From an uncultured Ruminococcus sp. (GTDB lineage Bacteria > Bacillota > Clostridia > Oscillospirales > Acutalibacteraceae), in the NCBI GenBank assembly GCA_902773265.1, contig CACYDZ010000364.1, positions 1 through 6,636 on the forward strand: 6,636 nt of DNA. The letters are read 5' to 3'. The position numbers were made by a program, and so were the translations under genes. The first letter of the stretch is position 1. Every line of letters starts with the position of its first letter. This document shows, piece after piece, positions 1 through 6,636 of this stretch. Below the pieces are notes generated by a model that was given only the letters and a program-made list of their open reading frames with translations, was not told the origin of the DNA and did no database searches.

Positions 1-2084
1 TTATCAGCAAGGGACGGGTCGGGCTTACGGAAATTTTCTTCCATTGCGGACGCATTAAGCCACATATCAAATTCATCTGTCCCTAAAATTGATGATGTTG
101 CGTCAATGAAAAGAATATCCTTGTAATCTTCTTCTTTTTTCAACTCATCAATTTTTTCTCTCAATCTGCGTTGTTCGTCTTCATTTCTGGCAAAGCAGAT
201 GATTGTTTTGATTTTAAATCGGTTATTATGGTTTGCCACTTTACCGACTTCCGTTCTGACATTATCTACCGTTACATAGTTTGTAAAATCAAATCTTGCT
301 TTCAGATAATCACCGAAATTGAAAGCCGTCAACAACTCTCCGTTACTGACCAACTGTGAAGTTTTGGTATTTTTCCGCAAATTTTCCTTGATTTCATCAA
401 TTTTTGACTGGTCACCCGATTCGATATTTGCTGCATATTCAGGTACTCTTCCACTATCATCTCTGTAAAGAATTTTTTTCTTTCCTATGAGAAGATTTTC
501 AAGAATATTGATTGCCTTGTCACTTTCCAATGCAATATCTCCCTCAAAAGCCAATCGAATATTACGGACTGTCGGACGCAATAGCTCAACAGCGTTTTTC
601 TGCTTGCGGGATATTGCCTGCATCATCAACACGGTTTTCAATACTCTGCGTTCTTCTTCACTATCCATTCTGTCTTCGTTGATGACATAGGTATCAAGAA
701 TTGTAGCAATTAACCTGCTTAAGTTGTTTTTGCCTGTTGTATGGGAATTTTCATCTGTTCCCGATACATAAAAGAAATCCCAAAGATAATCTATTGTTAA
801 TATATCACCGTTTTCAGGACTGCGATTTTTGATAAACCATTGGAAAGCGTGCATATTTTCATCTTCATTTTTGATAAAATTAAACATACTTCTCTGGTTA
901 GATGCAAATTCAACCGAAATATATTTCAGCATAAGTGCCGCCATAGGGTGTATCGGCAAAATACTTTTCATTGTTTCTGTATCGATTTTTGCTTTTTCAC
1001 AAACGATTTTTCTTGGTTCATAAGTATACTCGGTAATATCTTTGACCAACTCTGAATATTCGTCTTTGACGATAGGAATATCTATCGGTTTTATTGCGTC
1101 ATGGATTAAATCAAAAGCAACAACATCAGGCATTTCTACCTTAACTTGATTAAATCTGTCAAAAACAGCTGAACCATCAACACCATTAGCGTAATTTTCG
1201 TGTGTAGCAACAATGAAATTAAATGGTTTGCTGTCGTGTAATTCCTGTAAAGTCTGTAAACTGTCCAGTACATCTTTCATTTTCTTGAACATTGATGAAA
1301 ACTCGTCCCACATAAATACAATATGTGAAAGATTATTCACCTCAATAACTTCTTTAATCCATTCTTTCAGAAATTCTACTGTTGTTTCATAAATAATAAT
1401 TTTTTCATCATTGGCAATCTTGAATAAATCCCGTAACAAATTTTCGACATTTCTGTTTGTGTTCCTCAGACGGTCAGCGACTTCTTCAACTGACCTGCCA
1501 TATATACTGCCTAATCCTCTATACTTTGGCTGTTTGAAACACTCTTCAAAAAAATTTTTCCACTTGGGTTCTGTAATTCTGTCGGCGACACTGCCTCTTA
1601 CTGTCTTTTCCGCAATACTATTATATCCATTCCTTATCAACTCTTTTGCAATACTTTCGTATACAGCAACAACAAAATCTTGTACGGTGTTTATTTCGCC
1701 ACTGGAATATTTAAAAACAGTTAAAATTTTTTCACTGCGTATTCTTGTAAACCTACTTTTCAGTTCCTTTTCTTTCTTTAGTAACTCATAAGATTGAAAA
1801 TAATCTTCAAATTCTTTATCTGTACATTTGAATAAATTAGATAATGTCCAGATAAAACGGGATTTTCCTGTACCGAAAGCACCATGCACCAGCAAATCAT
1901 TTTTAGCTTTATTATTTTCACGATTAATCATACGGACAACGGCTTTTAGAAAATCAACAAATCCTTTATGTGGATAGGTACGATTCCATTTCAGTTCGGT
2001 GTCTTTGACAGATTCAGGATTAATGACAGGATAATAAGCTTTATCTATTGAAAAATACTGTTCATAGGTTCTCATATCTTGCAT
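1..2084 (-). CDS. brxC: BrxC/PglY-like P-loop ATPase, N-terminal 694 residues (3' end outside window)
   Basis: The frame is open from an ATG at 2084 to the left edge, giving 694 residues with no stop. Seen: Walker A GAFGTGKS at residues 68-75; a hydrophobic strand ending in Walker B Asp260-Glu261 (IVFMWDEF); a sensor-like strand FIVATHEN at 290-297; and a DRF arginine-finger-like motif at 309-311. Further on are an 'LPIHPMAALML' helix near 376-386 and an NQRSMFNFI motif at 396-404. Known: an HP-x-A helix followed by N-x-R-S-hydrophobic-F is how I recall BrxC/PglY-type BREX ATPases, which exceed 1,000 residues, so a substantial C-terminal part should lie to the left. Inferred role: cytoplasmic ATPase of a BREX-type defence complex, working with the upstream PP-loop protein. 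The start is set by a strong Shine-Dalgarno at 2094-2101, nine bases upstream; the gap to the preceding stop is 4 bp. Alternatives are another defence-island STAND/AAA ATPase or a DptF-like protein of Dnd restriction. ATPase assignment is confident, the BrxC name moderately so. Confidence 0.72.
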   Translation of the reverse strand, partial: MQDMRTYEQYFSIDKAYYPVINPESVKDTELKWNRTYPHKGFVDFLKAVVRMINRENNKAKNDLLVHGAFGTGKSRFIWTLSNLFKCTDKEFEDYFQSYELLKKEKELKSRFTRIRSEKILTVFKYSSGEINTVQDFVVAVYESIAKELIRNGYNSIAEKTVRGSVADRITEPKWKNFFEECFKQPKYRGLGSIYGRSVEEVADRLRNTNRNVENLLRDLFKIANDEKIIIYETTVEFLKEWIKEVIEVNNLSHIVFMWDEFSSMFKKMKDVLDSLQTLQELHDSKPFNFIVATHENYANGVDGSAVFDRFNQVKVEMPDVVAFDLIHDAIKPIDIPIVKDEYSELVKDITEYTYEPRKIVCEKAKIDTETMKSILPIHPMAALMLKYISVEFASNQRSMFNFIKNEDENMHAFQWFIKNRSPENGDILTIDYLWDFFYVSGTDENSHTTGKNNLSRLIATILDTYVINEDRMDSEEERRVLKTVLMMQAISRKQKNAVELLRPTVRNIRLAFEGDIALESDKAINILENLLIGKKKILYRDDSGRVPEYAANIESGDQSKIDEIKENLRKNTKTSQLVSNGELLTAFNFGDYLKARFDFTNYVTVDNVRTEVGKVANHNNRFKIKTIICFARNEDEQRRLREKIDELKKEEDYKDILFIDATSSILGTDEFDMWLNASAMEENFRKPDPSLAD

Positions 2085-2088
2085 ACCA

Positions 2089-4383
2089 TCATTCCTCCTC
2101 CAGTAATTTCAGCACATCAGCCGAAGTATGATATTCTCTCAAAGATATTTTATCAAGGTCATGGGTAAATGTCACATTAATAAAATCCTCGTACTTTGCC
2201 GAAAGTCCTCTCAACATCGGCTCAAGGTCATCTTCATCAAAACCAAAAATTCTTACAGGGCTTATTCCTGCTGATTTTTTAGTCAAATCCAAAAGCGACG
2301 ACATCGGAAAACTCCAAGTGTCGTTTTCTTCTGCGTATCTGTAAAGAGCATACAGCAAAACAAGTGAATTATAAATGGAACATTTGTTTCTTTTGGCTGA
2401 TATAACAACTTTTCCTTTTGTTTCCACACTCATAAAATTCAATGTTGTCCCGAAAGGTGTTTCTTTTGCAATTCTTTTCAACGCTGAAATAATAAATTTT
2501 ATATCATTATTGGTAGCTTTACACTCACTAAGCATATTTGAAAGTTCTTCTCTTGTAAAAAACTTTCCAATGGGCATATTTATAATATACCAATTAAACT
2601 GTGGATTATTGTAAGCTAATTCTATTAAAACAATAGCTATTACAATTTCACTATCATATGGAAATTTCGATAAACATTTTCCTAAATCTGTTACTATTTT
2701 TTTTCTGGTATCTGTAAGAGATGCATCATTCAGAAATCTTTTAAATGATTTTATTTGATTTGGACCCAAATTATTATTTAATAAAAACTCATCTGGGTTT
2801 TCAAAAAAATTTTGAAGCCATGCATTTAAAGGAGCATGACTGTCAAAGCAATTTATACTTTTAGTTTTTTCTTTCATTGGTTTTTTTCTGCTTTCCATAA
2901 CTAAACACCCACTTAACATATCGTGACAAGCACCACATTGTATACAATGGTTAATTTTTACACCATTTTCATCAAATTTTAAAGCTCCTGACCAACAATG
3001 ACTTTCACAAGCCCTACATAAAACACAATACGCTGATTTTTTTAAAGCTTGTTTAAGTATTTTATATTTACCTAAACGATTTAATTCTTTACTTACAACG
3101 ATTGTTACTTTGTTCTTTTCTACAATTTCATCAAAAATTGTATCTATGTTGGGAACTGTTTTTTTCCATTCACTCCATATTCTATATTCTGTAATAGCAG
3201 AAAGATAAATTTTTCCATTTTTCTCGTATTCAAAATATTTTAAATCATTATCAAATAAATCACGACCACTTCTTCGTGAATTGAATCCTCCATTATCTAT
3301 ATAACTTTCGATATTACTATCATCAACGAGTTTTTTAACTATATCAACAAACTTTTGAACTTCATTAGGATAAGACGCATACTGCATACAATACGACTTT
3401 CCTGTTGCCATTGGACAAAGTAAACACCCTGCACGAGAATTTCCTTTTTTATAGGTTTCATTAATAACCAAATTCCGGGCATAAATATACAGCCATACTT
3501 CGGCTGATGTCCATTCTAATATCGGATTGTAAGAATACTGTCCTTTCTGTTTTTTCCCGTAATTTTCTTCTTCGTATTTTGAACGCATAACACTTTCATA
3601 TCTGCGTACACCGACAAAATCCAGCCCTATATAGTTATTTTTTCCTGTAATTTCTCTAAGTTTGAGTGTCTGCGGTGTAGATTTATGCACCGTACAACAC
3701 CATCTTAATACTCTTGACGGTGGTCCGAATAATTTCCAGCTTTCTTCGGGCTTGAGATGTGATGTTGCTCTGTAAAATTCTATATTATTATTCAGACATT
3801 CTTCCTCCACTTTGTCTATGACATCATATGTATCCGGAAATTCCATTTGCGTATCTCCGAAAATGACCACATAACTGCTTTCAGGTAACGCTTTTCGGCA
3901 TATATCCAAAACAACTATGCTGTCTTTTCCTCCTGAAAACGCAATGTGAAAACGGTCAATTTTTTTCTTGTACTTACGATATGTGGCATATACTTTCTTG
4001 ATAGTAATCTGTTCAAGAATTTCAAGAAGTTCATGATTTTTACAACACATTTTTTCTATGTCAATCGGTATGAGTTCTGTCTGTAATTCTACTGCCGGTT
4101 TTTCTGTTCCGTTTTCATCTGTTTCCATAACAATCTCTACTTCGGGCATACTGTATAATGAACCGCCTTTTGTATCGAAAATATGTTTCCCCCGATAATA
4201 ATATCTCTGCGATTCAGCCCACAGATAAGGAATATCTGTCTGTGGTTCATACCGATAATAACGGTCTATTCCCAAAAAATCGAGTTCTGTTGCATAAACA
4301 GGACGAGGTTCTTTAGACATATTTACCGACTGGTCAATAAGTAAAATTCCGCCCGTTTCTTCATCGTATTTATAATCAAACAT
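2089..4383 (-). CDS. brxP: BrxP-like PAPS reductase/DndC-family PP-loop protein with embedded ferredoxin-like module
   Basis: 764 residues, cytoplasmic, with no signal peptide or membrane segment. An N-terminal region (about 35-85) contains PYLWAES and YYYRGKHIF. The PP-loop core runs about 140-330: SGGKDS at 150-155 (ATP pyrophosphate loop), a GDTQMEFPDT strand at 176-185 (equivalent to the family's TGxEFPET), RWCCTVHK at 227-234, and GCLLCPM at 319-325. Cys229/230/320/323 could hold an Fe-S cluster as in DndC. Residues 453-493 carry eight cysteines in two ferredoxin-type clusters. The C-terminal part (about 540-764) is helical and ends in a module with RIFGF at 711-715 and a D-L-D strand near 742-744, possibly DUF4007-like. 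Known: PAPS-reductase relatives adenylate or reduce sulfur substrates; DndC does so in DNA phosphorothioation, and BrxP is the BREX type 4 member. Inferred: a defence-linked modification enzyme. The start follows a 9 bp gap and a weak, distant AAGGA; Met22 is an alternative. The middle third is unusually AT-rich. Family is secure; the BrxP name rests on the adjacent BrxC-like gene. Confidence 0.78.
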   Translation of the reverse strand: MFDYKYDEETGGILLIDQSVNMSKEPRPVYATELDFLGIDRYYRYEPQTDIPYLWAESQRYYYRGKHIFDTKGGSLYSMPEVEIVMETDENGTEKPAVELQTELIPIDIEKMCCKNHELLEILEQITIKKVYATYRKYKKKIDRFHIAFSGGKDSIVVLDICRKALPESSYVVIFGDTQMEFPDTYDVIDKVEEECLNNNIEFYRATSHLKPEESWKLFGPPSRVLRWCCTVHKSTPQTLKLREITGKNNYIGLDFVGVRRYESVMRSKYEEENYGKKQKGQYSYNPILEWTSAEVWLYIYARNLVINETYKKGNSRAGCLLCPMATGKSYCMQYASYPNEVQKFVDIVKKLVDDSNIESYIDNGGFNSRRSGRDLFDNDLKYFEYEKNGKIYLSAITEYRIWSEWKKTVPNIDTIFDEIVEKNKVTIVVSKELNRLGKYKILKQALKKSAYCVLCRACESHCWSGALKFDENGVKINHCIQCGACHDMLSGCLVMESRKKPMKEKTKSINCFDSHAPLNAWLQNFFENPDEFLLNNNLGPNQIKSFKRFLNDASLTDTRKKIVTDLGKCLSKFPYDSEIVIAIVLIELAYNNPQFNWYIINMPIGKFFTREELSNMLSECKATNNDIKFIISALKRIAKETPFGTTLNFMSVETKGKVVISAKRNKCSIYNSLVLLYALYRYAEENDTWSFPMSSLLDLTKKSAGISPVRIFGFDEDDLEPMLRGLSAKYEDFINVTFTHDLDKISLREYHTSADVLKLLEEE
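2094..2101 (-). promoter_or_regulatory. Strong Shine-Dalgarno for the BrxC-like gene, inside the preceding coding end
   Basis: The transcript reads GGAGGAGG nine bases before the ATG at 2084. The site is formed by the final Leu-Glu-Glu-Glu codons of the PP-loop gene, so ribosomes terminating at 2089 sit on the next initiation site, which favours translational coupling. It supports the ATG at 2084 over the ATG at 2092, whose frame stops after six codons, and over the in-frame ATG at 2075, which is too far away. Confidence 0.8.
2461..3360. other. AT-rich block inside the PP-loop gene
   Basis: Hand-counted GC is about 27% over these 900 bp, against about 36% in 2101-2460 and about 38% in 3361-3780, all within the same gene. 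The block corresponds to residues of about 342-641, which include the ferredoxin-like module but neither the catalytic PP-loop core nor the last 120 residues. A Lys/Asn/Ile/Tyr-rich protein sequence explains part of the dip. Intragenic recombination or module acquisition is a possible cause, not shown. Confidence 0.6.
2899..3033 (-). other. Ferredoxin-like eight-cysteine module encoded inside the PP-loop gene
   Basis: Covers residues 451-495 of the PP-loop protein. The first cluster is C-x2-C-x2-C-x3-C (Cys453, 456, 459, 463). The second is C-x2-C-x2-C-x6-C (Cys480, 483, 486, 493). Spacing between the two matches the bacterial 2[4Fe-4S] ferredoxin fold, though the usual proline after the fourth cysteine is missing in both (Trp464, Leu494). 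By family knowledge such modules carry electrons; here it could feed the PP-loop active site or stabilise the complex. Whether it binds two clusters is inferred. Confidence 0.75.
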
Positions 4384-4392
4384 CTGTGTGTA

Positions 4393-6636
4393 TCATTCCT
4401 TCGTCTGTCTTATTCTGTACGCACCTGATATAATCTGACTTACCTCTGATTTTCTCTGCCTGAAACCATAACGAATTAAATAACGGTTTACTTCATCTTC
4501 TTCAAGCTCAATTTCTGAATCAGCAACGGCAATCGTAATAAGGTCGCTGTAGCTGTTATAAGTCATCTTTGCGTCAATAACAGCCCCTACAACCCCTGCC
4601 CTTGTGTGTTCGCCTTCAAATCTCCATTTTTGACTGTAATGCTGCAAAAAACTGACAAGCAAAAATTTATTCCATGTGTATCCCTCAATGTAAGGAAACA
4701 GATTGAAACTGATACTGTTTATTGCTGTAACTTCATGACGATGAAATAAATCTATCTTTTGGTCTGTTGTAGCAATATCAAATAAAATATTACTCTTCTG
4801 AATAAATTCATCTGCTGTTATTCTCAACATTGTCTTCACTGCCACATTGAGTGATTTCTTTGTCTTACAACCTGCTATCTTTTCTTCATAAGCTTCGACA
4901 TCCTCTAAAGTAAGATATTCATGTTCAAGACAATATTTTTCCAATAATTTATCAATATTTCTCTGTTGTCCTAAAGGTGAAATTCTTCTGTTTTTTCGGA
5001 TATATTCAGTGGCTGAAAAAAATCTGTCAAATAACGCTGTCTGCAAGATAATTTCTTCTATGTCACCATTGAGTTCTTTGCTTTTTGCTACCACCAAATC
5101 TTTCAAAAAACAATAACCTTGTTCATTTATCAGTTCTCTGATAACTTTTCCGGATTTTTCAATATCTTCTTCATCAAAATCTATACTATCAATTACAACA
5201 TACTGTTCCCTACTTGTTCGGATATATTTAGGATTTTGGCTTAAATGAGTGCGAATGATGTTACTGTCTATATAAGGCAACCGTTCACTCAACTTTTCAA
5301 CTGACAAGCAGATATCATATCCAAATGCTTTACCTATTTCTTCTTTCAAGGTTGTATTACTATCTGTAAAGAAATTTTTCTCCTGTCGGTATTTCGGAAA
5401 CAGGCTTATTACTACTGTTTTCAGCATATTTTCGGAGTAAATACAGAAATCTGTCAGCCTTTCAATATTTTTCTGATACAGCACATTATAAAATATAATG
5501 CGGTTTTCAAGCAATATTTCTGTGACAAGTTTCTTTACATAAGCAATCGCTTCATCGCTCAATACATAATATTTCCCGTCATATAAAAAAGCTCCTTGCT
5601 TCAAAATATCGGTGATATTGGCTTCTTCGGGAAAATCTTCTCCATATTTTGAAGAATAAGCTCTCATAAACTGCCTTCCTGAAATTGTCAGTCTTCCCTC
5701 TGCATTCCACAATTCCTGTTTCAGACCATTGGAAAATTTTTCTCTTATTACTGCCTGACATCTTTCCAATAATTCTTTGTCAATTTTCTTCTTTTCGGGA
5801 ATTTTCTGAATGACCGGCTGTCTGTCAGTTTTTTTCTTTTCGGGAATTTTCTGAATGACTGGCTGTTGATAAGTAATCGTTAGTCTTTTTAACGGAATAT
5901 TTGCCAAAGTCAACATTTTTTTCAGTCTGTCAATAATTTCCTGCGGTGTCCAGTCTGTTTCTACATAAACATTTTCTGCTATCTTGATAGGATTTCTCAA
6001 ATACGCATACCAATATAAATTTCCTAAATCTATTTTTTTCTCGTTAACAAACAAAGATTTTCCTATATACTGTTTTAAGATAGATTGCCGTTCCTCCCAA
6101 AAATATTGGACAAATTCAGCGTATAATTCTGACCACGAACGACAATTAACCAGTTTCATTCTATAATATACTGCGACAAGTGGTACAGATAACGGGTGGA
6201 CTTCATCGTTGTCATAAGTAATCTCTTTAACTTCAAACGGTTCAAGATTTGATTTTTCTGTAGCTGTTTCAGAAAACTGTTCTGTTTGTTCTGTAATATC
6301 CGCTGGTCGTCTTTTGCGATACTCAATAACAAGATTTTCATCGTCTACATAGCATAAATCCAACAGCCTTTTTATCCGTCTGACAATATTTTCTGCACTT
6401 AAATTTGTTTCGGCAAATACATTGTTGAAAATTTCCATAGGTCTGCGTAGAATGGAAACATAATCTCGGTCACAAAAATCTATCGTATCCCCTCTGGTAA
6501 TAGATGTTCCTTTTAATCCCTCAATTACCTGTGGATAGTCTTCATACAAACACTTCAAAACGCCAACATACAAACTATTCCATACATCATACAAATGCAC
6601 TTCTCCAAAATAATCAAAACTTATCGGTTTTGTAAA
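4393..6636 (-). CDS. Unrecognised large defence-operon protein with duplicated N-terminal domain (5' end probably outside window)
   Basis: I do not recognise a named family. Residues are numbered from the GTG at 6600, which gives 735 aa. The frame continues open for 12 more codons to the window edge, and those codons extend the first domain copy, so the true start is probably outside. Architecture seen: domain copy 1 up to about residue 95 (LRRP at 51-54, AETNLSAENIV at 63-73); an acidic, Thr/Glu-rich linker at 98-125; domain copy 2 at about 135-244 (LRNP at 201-204, VETDWTPQEII at 213-223); and two perfectly in-frame 15-residue repeats at 246-275. Residues 276-735 are soluble alpha/beta with several helix-helix-strand stretches suggesting winged-helix folds (e.g. 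325-347 and 445-470). There is no Walker, PD-(D/E)xK, methyltransferase or cysteine-cluster motif, and no membrane segment. I recall an 'ETNLSA' signature in uncharacterised clostridial proteins, unverified. It is first in the visible operon, 9 bp before the PP-loop gene. A DNA-recognition or scaffold role is inference only. Confidence 0.85.
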   Translation of the reverse strand, partial: FTKPISFDYFGEVHLYDVWNSLYVGVLKCLYEDYPQVIEGLKGTSITRGDTIDFCDRDYVSILRRPMEIFNNVFAETNLSAENIVRRIKRLLDLCYVDDENLVIEYRKRRPADITEQTEQFSETATEKSNLEPFEVKEITYDNDEVHPLSVPLVAVYYRMKLVNCRSWSELYAEFVQYFWEERQSILKQYIGKSLFVNEKKIDLGNLYWYAYLRNPIKIAENVYVETDWTPQEIIDRLKKMLTLANIPLKRLTITYQQPVIQKIPEKKKTDRQPVIQKIPEKKKIDKELLERCQAVIREKFSNGLKQELWNAEGRLTISGRQFMRAYSSKYGEDFPEEANITDILKQGAFLYDGKYYVLSDEAIAYVKKLVTEILLENRIIFYNVLYQKNIERLTDFCIYSENMLKTVVISLFPKYRQEKNFFTDSNTTLKEEIGKAFGYDICLSVEKLSERLPYIDSNIIRTHLSQNPKYIRTSREQYVVIDSIDFDEEDIEKSGKVIRELINEQGYCFLKDLVVAKSKELNGDIEEIILQTALFDRFFSATEYIRKNRRISPLGQQRNIDKLLEKYCLEHEYLTLEDVEAYEEKIAGCKTKKSLNVAVKTMLRITADEFIQKSNILFDIATTDQKIDLFHRHEVTAINSISFNLFPYIEGYTWNKFLLVSFLQHYSQKWRFEGEHTRAGVVGAVIDAKMTYNSYSDLITIAVADSEIELEEDEVNRYLIRYGFRQRKSEVSQIISGAYRIRQTKE
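4397..4402 (-). promoter_or_regulatory. Weak, distant Shine-Dalgarno for the PP-loop gene
   Basis: The transcript reads GAAGGA just before the stop of the upstream gene. About 13 bases separate it from the ATG at 4383, longer than the usual 5-9. No better site lies nearer, so initiation probably relies on ribosomes finishing the upstream gene (stop at 4393-4395). This suggests the PP-loop protein is made at a level tied to the upstream protein and perhaps lower than the BrxC-like ATPase. Confidence 0.45.
5777..5866 (-). repeat. Two tandem 45-bp direct repeats, in frame
   Basis: The unit 5777-5821 is repeated at 5822-5866 with 41 of 45 bases identical. The four differences (at 5777/5822, 5783/5828, 5788/5833 and 5815/5860) are all transitions. 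Each unit is 15 codons, so copy number can change without frameshift. It encodes a Lys/Pro-rich QPVIQKIPEKKK-type unit twice, at residues 246-275, in the linker between the N-terminal domain pair and the C-terminal part of the unrecognised protein. Confidence 0.9.
5869..6636 (-). other. Tandem duplication of a roughly 100-residue domain in the unrecognised protein
   Basis: Two protein segments align by eye: the window edge to about residue 95, and about 135-244. Shared landmarks in order are a tryptophan then L-Y (Trp7 / Trp156), a Y-x2-L-R-x-P-hydrophobic-x-I type element (48-57 / 198-207), N-V-(F/Y)-(A/V)-E-T (60-65 / 210-215), I-(V/I)-x-R-(I/L)-K-(R/K)-(L/M)-L (72-80 / 222-230), and a closing hydrophobic strand ending in -x-Y (90-94 / 240-244). 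Copy 1 keeps N-L-S-A after E-T; copy 2 has diverged to D-W-T-P. Detectable only at protein level, so the duplication is old. Confidence 0.75.

Follow-up and report, generated by a model that had tools for sequence, protein, structure and literature searches.

A conserved gene encoding predicted SeqA-like domains lies upstream of brxP in a BREX type 4 operon of an uncultured Ruminococcus

Results

The window analysed here is one whole contig (C364, CACYDZ010000364.1; 6636 bp) from a draft genome of an uncultured Ruminococcus sp. (GCA_902773265.1; 1.79 Mb in 388 contigs, 76.8% complete, estimated contamination 0.17%). It contains three genes, all on the minus strand, as are the features located within them below, arranged head to tail in the order orfX-brxP-brxC, with gaps of 9 bp between orfX and brxP and 4 bp (2085-2088) between brxP and brxC. 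The initial annotation had described a PP-loop enzyme encoded 4 bp upstream of a large ATPase and had taken the window as the start of a candidate BREX (bacteriophage exclusion) type 4 locus. Both genes are present, and their coordinates and named motifs were confirmed. The locus does not start there, however, as a conserved gene that had been missed, orfX (4393-6636), sits upstream of brxP. It is the first gene of the visible operon, with 747 amino acids (aa) seen and its 5' end lost at the contig edge. The brxP gene (2089-4383) encodes 764 aa, and brxC (3-2084) is represented by the first 694 of about 1400 residues, its 3' half lying past the contig end. Promoter-like sites (31 versus 26.8 expected) and terminator-like sites (8 versus 2.9 expected, each of them within brxP or brxC) were not used as evidence.

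By its sequence, the window belongs to a BREX type 4 defence operon. Hidden Markov model (HMM) searches with the PADLOC models placed the two proteins in the BrxP and BrxC families, as had been anticipated: BrxP matched PDLC02510 over residues 1-762 (E 1.2e-238) and also PF01507 (E 2.1e-33), and residues 6-683 of BrxC matched positions 4-672 of the 1376 in its best model, PDLC02485 (E 5e-120). In an alignment of 18 BrxP proteins, the motifs SGGKDS, RWC and GC..CP and eight ferredoxin-like cysteines are invariant, and the second cysteine of RWCC is found in at least 90% of the proteins; all invariant positions are kept in the window, where the motifs read SGGKDS (the PP-loop, residues 150-155, 3919-3936), RWCC and GCLLCP. 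The eight cysteines form a 4Fe-4S-like region (residues 453-493, 2905-3027) with Fer4 matches below the Pfam cut-off. The C-terminal part of BrxP (residues 520-760, 2104-2826) is DUF4007/SspB-like (PDLC02511, E 2.4e-16; SspB model PDLC02764, a weak E 0.0082) and is the counterpart of a separate DUF4007/SspB protein in Ssp systems; a fusion of PAPS reductase and DUF4007 is usual for BrxP of type 4. In one related locus (L014, 2259-3107), a second open reading frame behind a near-complete brxP repeats this C-terminal part, with 31.6% identity to residues 509-762. BrxC carries a Walker A motif, GAFGTGKS (residues 68-75, 1860-1883), a Walker B-like FMWDEF, and the motifs IHPMAAL and NQRSMF.

The remainder of the operon was looked for in relatives and in the same genome. 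Twenty-one related loci were chosen by closeness to the window BrxP; by their record labels they are mostly Bacillota, with one each from Abditibacteriota, Thermotogae, Tenericutes and Muribaculaceae. Their gene order is orfX-brxP-brxC-pglZ-brxL, mostly followed by a cysteine desulfurase gene. Counting only loci whose DNA reached far enough, pglZ was found behind brxC in 18/18 and brxL in 17/17, and the desulfurase came next in 13 of the 16 whose DNA extends past brxL. In the own genome, contig C271 encodes BrxL (PDLC02505, E 3e-224) and PglZ (PDLC02554, E 5.9e-84), and contig C63 carries a second set consisting of most of brxC with pglZ and brxL. The window contig ends inside brxC, and C271, which is presumably linked to it, is tied to the window set solely by their common nearest relative, L002. 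The expectation that pglZ and brxL would lie downstream was thus borne out in every relative with enough DNA, with copies in the own genome as well, and none of the three window genes (0/3) is a dnd or dpt gene, neighbours that had been named as a sign against the assignment. None of the three encodes a PglX methyltransferase either, in a locus that is incomplete and a genome in which no genome-wide methyltransferase search was made. PF08665 gave no PglZ match in the own genome and is a poor probe, type 4 PglZ matching DUF7862/7863/7864 instead; a PglZ protein query found two copies. When 60 related genomes (own included) were searched for BrxP, five matched, namely the own genome, one with a partial match (31%) and three with traces.

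An OrfX homologue, detected with a profile of the last ~430 residues, lies directly upstream of brxP in 20/20 checkable relatives, among which L006/L017 and L012/L013 are near-identical operon pairs; the 21st relative, L014, starts inside brxP. A second sample comprised 391 genomes of the class, drawn regardless of closeness to the window BrxP, and gave a BrxP-like match in 12 genomes besides the own one. Four of these 12 loci (L059-L062) look Ssp-like or are otherwise without pglZ and brxL. Among the other eight, five carry the OrfX C-terminal module upstream (L052-L055 and L057, with L054 cut off), L058 has in the place of OrfX a 262-aa protein with a SeqA-like domain only, L056 is a type 4-like locus with other genes upstream, and L044 is cut off. 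On an archaeal Methanosphaera plasmid, one locus (L023) combines brxP with a BrxC-like gene, pglZ and brxL but lacks OrfX. OrfX is, then, a clade-specific part of type 4 BREX and not a universal one. In one of the five, L057 (G289 C19, 3222-4703), brxP is interrupted by an in-frame TAG, and no further gene of the operon was found behind it within the DNA covered; this is possibly a decayed BREX-4 locus that keeps orfX.

OrfX proteins range from 554 to 1488 aa and consist of several modules, of which the C-terminal one is common to the relatives and the front is variable. In the window, the C-terminal module (residues 318-743, 4408-5685) was delimited by profile and genome survey and is modelled as tandem winged helices. 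A full-length relative, P0001, has 1041 aa and is 88% identical. The window OrfX had no PADLOC or NCBIfam match and no Pfam match above the cut-off, and protein searches with OrfX returned entries that were nameless or labelled "hypothetical". In Foldseek searches, UFL1 chains ranked highest for the full-length model (E 3.6e-4 to 6.1e-4, root-mean-square deviation 12-24), a likeness that we read as a common tandem winged-helix arrangement and set aside; a viral structure library gave no match with E <= 0.001.

The front of the window OrfX contains two copies of a domain, here called D1, whose predicted fold is of the SeqA-C type. The first, D1a (residues 1-106, 6319-6636), was defined by a domain model, a structure model with a predicted local distance difference test score of 96.1, SeqA as the top structural matches, and a profile comparison. 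The second and more divergent copy, D1b (residues 151-256, 5869-6186), matches the domain model with E 4.7e-27, and strands and helices are predicted for its counterpart in P0001 (428-553). Compared with the C-terminal domain of SeqA (PF03925), D1 appears alike in its modelled fold and TN loop and differs by occurring in tandem copies within a 1000-aa protein, by a sequence below the Pfam cut-off and by several changed contact residues. The residues that contact GATC in SeqA are Arg116, Thr117, Arg118, Asn150 and Asn152. Of the last three, in the profile alignment, Asn150 is kept in 49/66 sequences and Arg118 in 36/66, while Asn152 is mostly Ser (45/66). In the class draw, D1 occurs in the OrfX of L052, and also in that of G309 if contig pieces C90 and C198 belong together. 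Relative L005 has two tandem OrfX-type genes before brxP (4173-8267 and 8274-9968), with three SeqA-like domains between them.

Other fronts are found in some relatives. Pfam domains in OrfX are HARE-HTH (L008, L019) and DUF7662 (L004, L018), with DUF7225 also in one of the latter two, and the database relative P0031, known as a protein alone and without a view of its gene neighbourhood, has a MrcB_N domain. The front can also differ more than its surroundings: L004 and L018 are 77% identical in BrxP, 46% in the OrfX back and 25% in the OrfX front, and L012 versus L015 is similar. On a finer scale, P0005, P0006 and P0042, compared over residues 1-349, have 15 of their 19 variable sites within residues 58-95 and are otherwise about 97% identical. 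These changes form a mosaic of two blocks (62-73 and 80-90), each protein having its own combination of them, in a region that covers the third predicted helix (58-72) of the OrfX N-terminal domain; gene conversion or a mechanism generating diversity is a conceivable source. The hypergeometric value for this clustering, 6e-13, is overstated, since the region was picked after being seen.

D1 is also found outside BREX. In the class draw it matched in 25 genomes, own included. When ten D1 proteins were scanned with Pfam, seven had GmrSD domains before D1, six of them with both halves (GmrSD_N being below the cut-off in L086) and one with the C-terminal half alone; two had no match, and one small protein matched SeqA under the cut-off (E 5.6e-5), as did a further D1 protein (E 1.2e-4). 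Behind GmrSD, D1 may be a domain with which Type IV restriction enzymes read DNA, and it carries no Pfam label there. The GmrSD-D1 proteins are those of L077, L080, L081, L086, L091, L095 and L096, with DUF4268 after D1 in L086, L091 and L095. Small proteins of 185-363 aa with one SeqA-like domain (L078, L079, L083, L085, L087-L090) come from genomes without a BrxP match.

The draft genome holds traces of two alternative BREX-4 sets. Over its residues 1-98 the window OrfX has the same sequence as P0005 and P0006 have at residues 294-391, and identity afterwards falls to about 23%; P0005, P0006 and P0042 probably belong with this genome. For the window BrxP and BrxC, the C271 PglZ and BrxL and the back half of the window OrfX (there tied with L004), the nearest relative is L002; for the P0006 back half and the BrxC, PglZ and BrxL of C63 it is always L052 or L053. 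C271 (L030, 3001 bp) and C63 (L049, 7309 bp) have the same first 87 bp, within which a small gene encoding zinc-finger-like cysteines ends, and then differ. The back half of P0006 is not in the genome bin, in which there are one BrxP and one OrfX.

Discussion

The locus resembles BREX type 4 in its BrxP and BrxC by HMM, in gene order, in the pglZ and brxL of genome and relatives, and in the desulfurase gene that comes next in most relatives. Type 4 BREX is described as a phosphorothioate-based system, with BrxC, a PAPS (3'-phosphoadenosine-5'-phosphosulfate) reductase, DUF4007, PglZ, BrxL, a desulfurase and a small zinc finger protein among its parts and a cysteine desulfurase in 56% of type 4 taxa (PMC12839542). 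The brxPCZL genes are also listed among phosphorothioate gene families and credited with antiviral activity (PMC11931770). The suggestion in the initial annotation that marking would depend on sulfur chemistry agrees with what these two papers say of type 4 and is hence not a new idea. What the window adds is a conserved orfX before brxP, a protein that the text section on type 4 in PMC12839542 does not name. Relative to Ssp systems (SspABCD), BrxP corresponds to SspD and an SspB-like part in one fused protein and BrxC resembles SspC, both by HMM and also according to PMC12839542, and PglZ and BrxL are present where Ssp has SspE or SspFGH.

We lean, with some reserve, towards OrfX being an adaptor that reads DNA for the sulfur-marking and defence core of BREX-4 and can be swapped, a proposal in which the folds are those of predicted models. 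The two SeqA-like domains would grip DNA and hand it to this core. The front, SeqA-like here and HARE-HTH or another domain in some relatives, would sense a mark or a site, and the C-terminal winged-helix array would dock on BrxC/BrxP, bringing the DNA there and to the effector PglZ; the mark, once read, would then determine if the DNA is protected or blocked by the core. D1 is read as a DNA-mark reader mainly because the same domain is fused to GmrSD enzymes, which act on modified DNA (PMC4619093); OrfX itself differs from these Type IV restriction enzymes by the absence of GmrSD_N and GmrSD_C in the window gene and in 44 scanned OrfX relatives. The likelier input would be foreign or base-modified DNA and not the phosphorothioate site itself, because a type 4 core without OrfX exists in Methanosphaera and because the GmrSD family to which the domain is fused acts on modified DNA.

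Several observations weigh against this proposal. The likeness to SeqA is structural: Foldseek of D1 gave no SeqA match at E <= 0.001, and with the full-length OrfX model a single SeqA match appeared at E 2.4, at rank 50 behind UFL1 chains. A sequence-profile search of PDB chains did not return SeqA, PF03925 was matched by 0/39 D1 domains, and two other D1 proteins stayed under its cut-off (23.6 and 22.5 versus 25.5 bits). At the position of SeqA Arg118, D1a has Thr and D1b has Lys; at that of Asn150, D1a keeps Asn and D1b has Asp. D1 is present in the OrfX of only 7/20 relatives, and single Pfam scans of 18 OrfX proteins gave a domain above the cut-off in four and none in 14. L011 and L021 are 96% identical in OrfX but 65% in BrxP, counter to strict co-inheritance. 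Finally, the C-terminal module has a sister family outside BREX-4 in 15/391 genomes (best E per genome 5.7e-17 to 6.1e-46), one member of which is named "sigma factor-like helix-turn-helix DNA-binding protein", and given this family OrfX could conceivably have a regulatory role.

A possible, if doubtful, alternative is that OrfX serves as the site-specificity subunit for sulfur marking, in a role like that of HsdS, its front picking the phosphorothioate sequence and its SeqA-like domains finding hemi-modified sites after replication. A variable front on a constant back is in keeping with such a role, as are the mosaic changes packed into residues 58-95 (15/19 sites) of three near-identical relatives, the binding of hemimethylated sites by SeqA and the position beside brxP in 20/20 checkable relatives. 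BrxP, however, already has a DUF4007/SspB-like part, and in Ssp systems the recognition of DNA is ascribed to SspB (PMC12707154). The OrfX C-terminal module is also lacking from some type 4 loci, namely L023 of Methanosphaera and L058, which has only the 262-aa D1 protein. That OrfX instead controls transcription of the operon, in the manner of BrxR in Type I BREX, we consider improbable. BrxR has a comparable place in its operon, and both are extra, non-core BREX genes with a predicted DNA-binding product; orfX is the first visible gene, those of its predicted folds that can be interpreted are of DNA-binding types, and the sister family carries the Pfam accessions PF04545 (sigma-70 region 4) and PF03118 (the C-terminal domain of the RNA polymerase alpha subunit). 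On the other hand, BrxR is a WYL regulator (PMC9122589), whereas OrfX has no Pfam WYL match and is far larger and multi-domain. Multi-module proteins of 554-1488 aa seem unlike the usual autoregulators, and the 9-bp gap to brxP suggests a single transcript. Very improbable, in our judgement, is an ordinary BREX type 4 locus with an unrelated hitchhiking neighbour: the link between OrfX and BREX does rest on gene neighbourhood, and the type 4-like locus L056 has other genes upstream, but a position directly upstream in 20/20 checkable relatives, from several phyla by record label, speaks against chance company.

A conserved orfX with a predicted mark-reader domain offers a handle on self/non-self discrimination in type 4 BREX, which marks the DNA backbone and not a base, and on whether the sulfur system senses base marks, hemi-modified sites or neither. 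In titles and abstract starts of the open-access papers retrieved, no SeqA-like domain was found described in BREX or on GmrSD; PMC6326788, in which both BREX and SeqA occur, employs SeqA as a fluorescent probe. The D1 domains of GmrSD enzymes suggest that defence systems hold a larger family of DNA-mark readers, lying under the cut-off of the Pfam SeqA model.

For the two BREX-4 sets, the simplest picture would be alternative assembly paths with common ends (the OrfX front and the operon tail) and an exchanged middle. They probably stem from two strains binned together, or from two loci, and not from one switching genome, a strain mixture being more likely than switching within one genome. 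The draft state of the assembly (388 contigs), the single BrxP and OrfX binned and the common 87-bp start of C63 and C271, as in alternative paths of an assembly graph, all fit such an origin. The contamination estimate of 0.17% argues against it, although such estimates see only marker genes. A more far-reaching idea, which we regard as unlikely, is a two-part immunity in which the SeqA-like head of OrfX is an interchangeable reader of modified DNA, front and operon tail being common to two cores that are swapped as whole cassettes through recombination inside the reader domain, while the population keeps one sensor. OrfX would then be the first such reader in a sulfur-marking defence among what the searches made here brought up.

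Mobile and viral records were covered as well. No match to OrfX turned up in plasmid records at E <= 1e-5, and a search of IMG/VR with P0006 found nothing; three IMG/VR contigs (L071-L073) carry a BrxP-like protein, with no match there to the other genes queried. One record filed as "Bacteriophage sp." (UNVERIFIED; L024, MT835511.1, 12561-27019) contains the whole orfX-brxP-brxC-pglZ-brxL-desulfurase operon and is perhaps a scaffold of bacterial origin or a mobile element. The OrfX sister family was viewed in eight of the 15 genomes that have it (L121-L128; 821-1334 aa), all without a BrxP match. In one of these (L127), the 18-kb stretch with the OrfX-like gene also holds a PAPS-reductase-like gene (15746-17302; 24% identity to BrxP over 233 aa), possibly representing another sulfur system with an OrfX relative.
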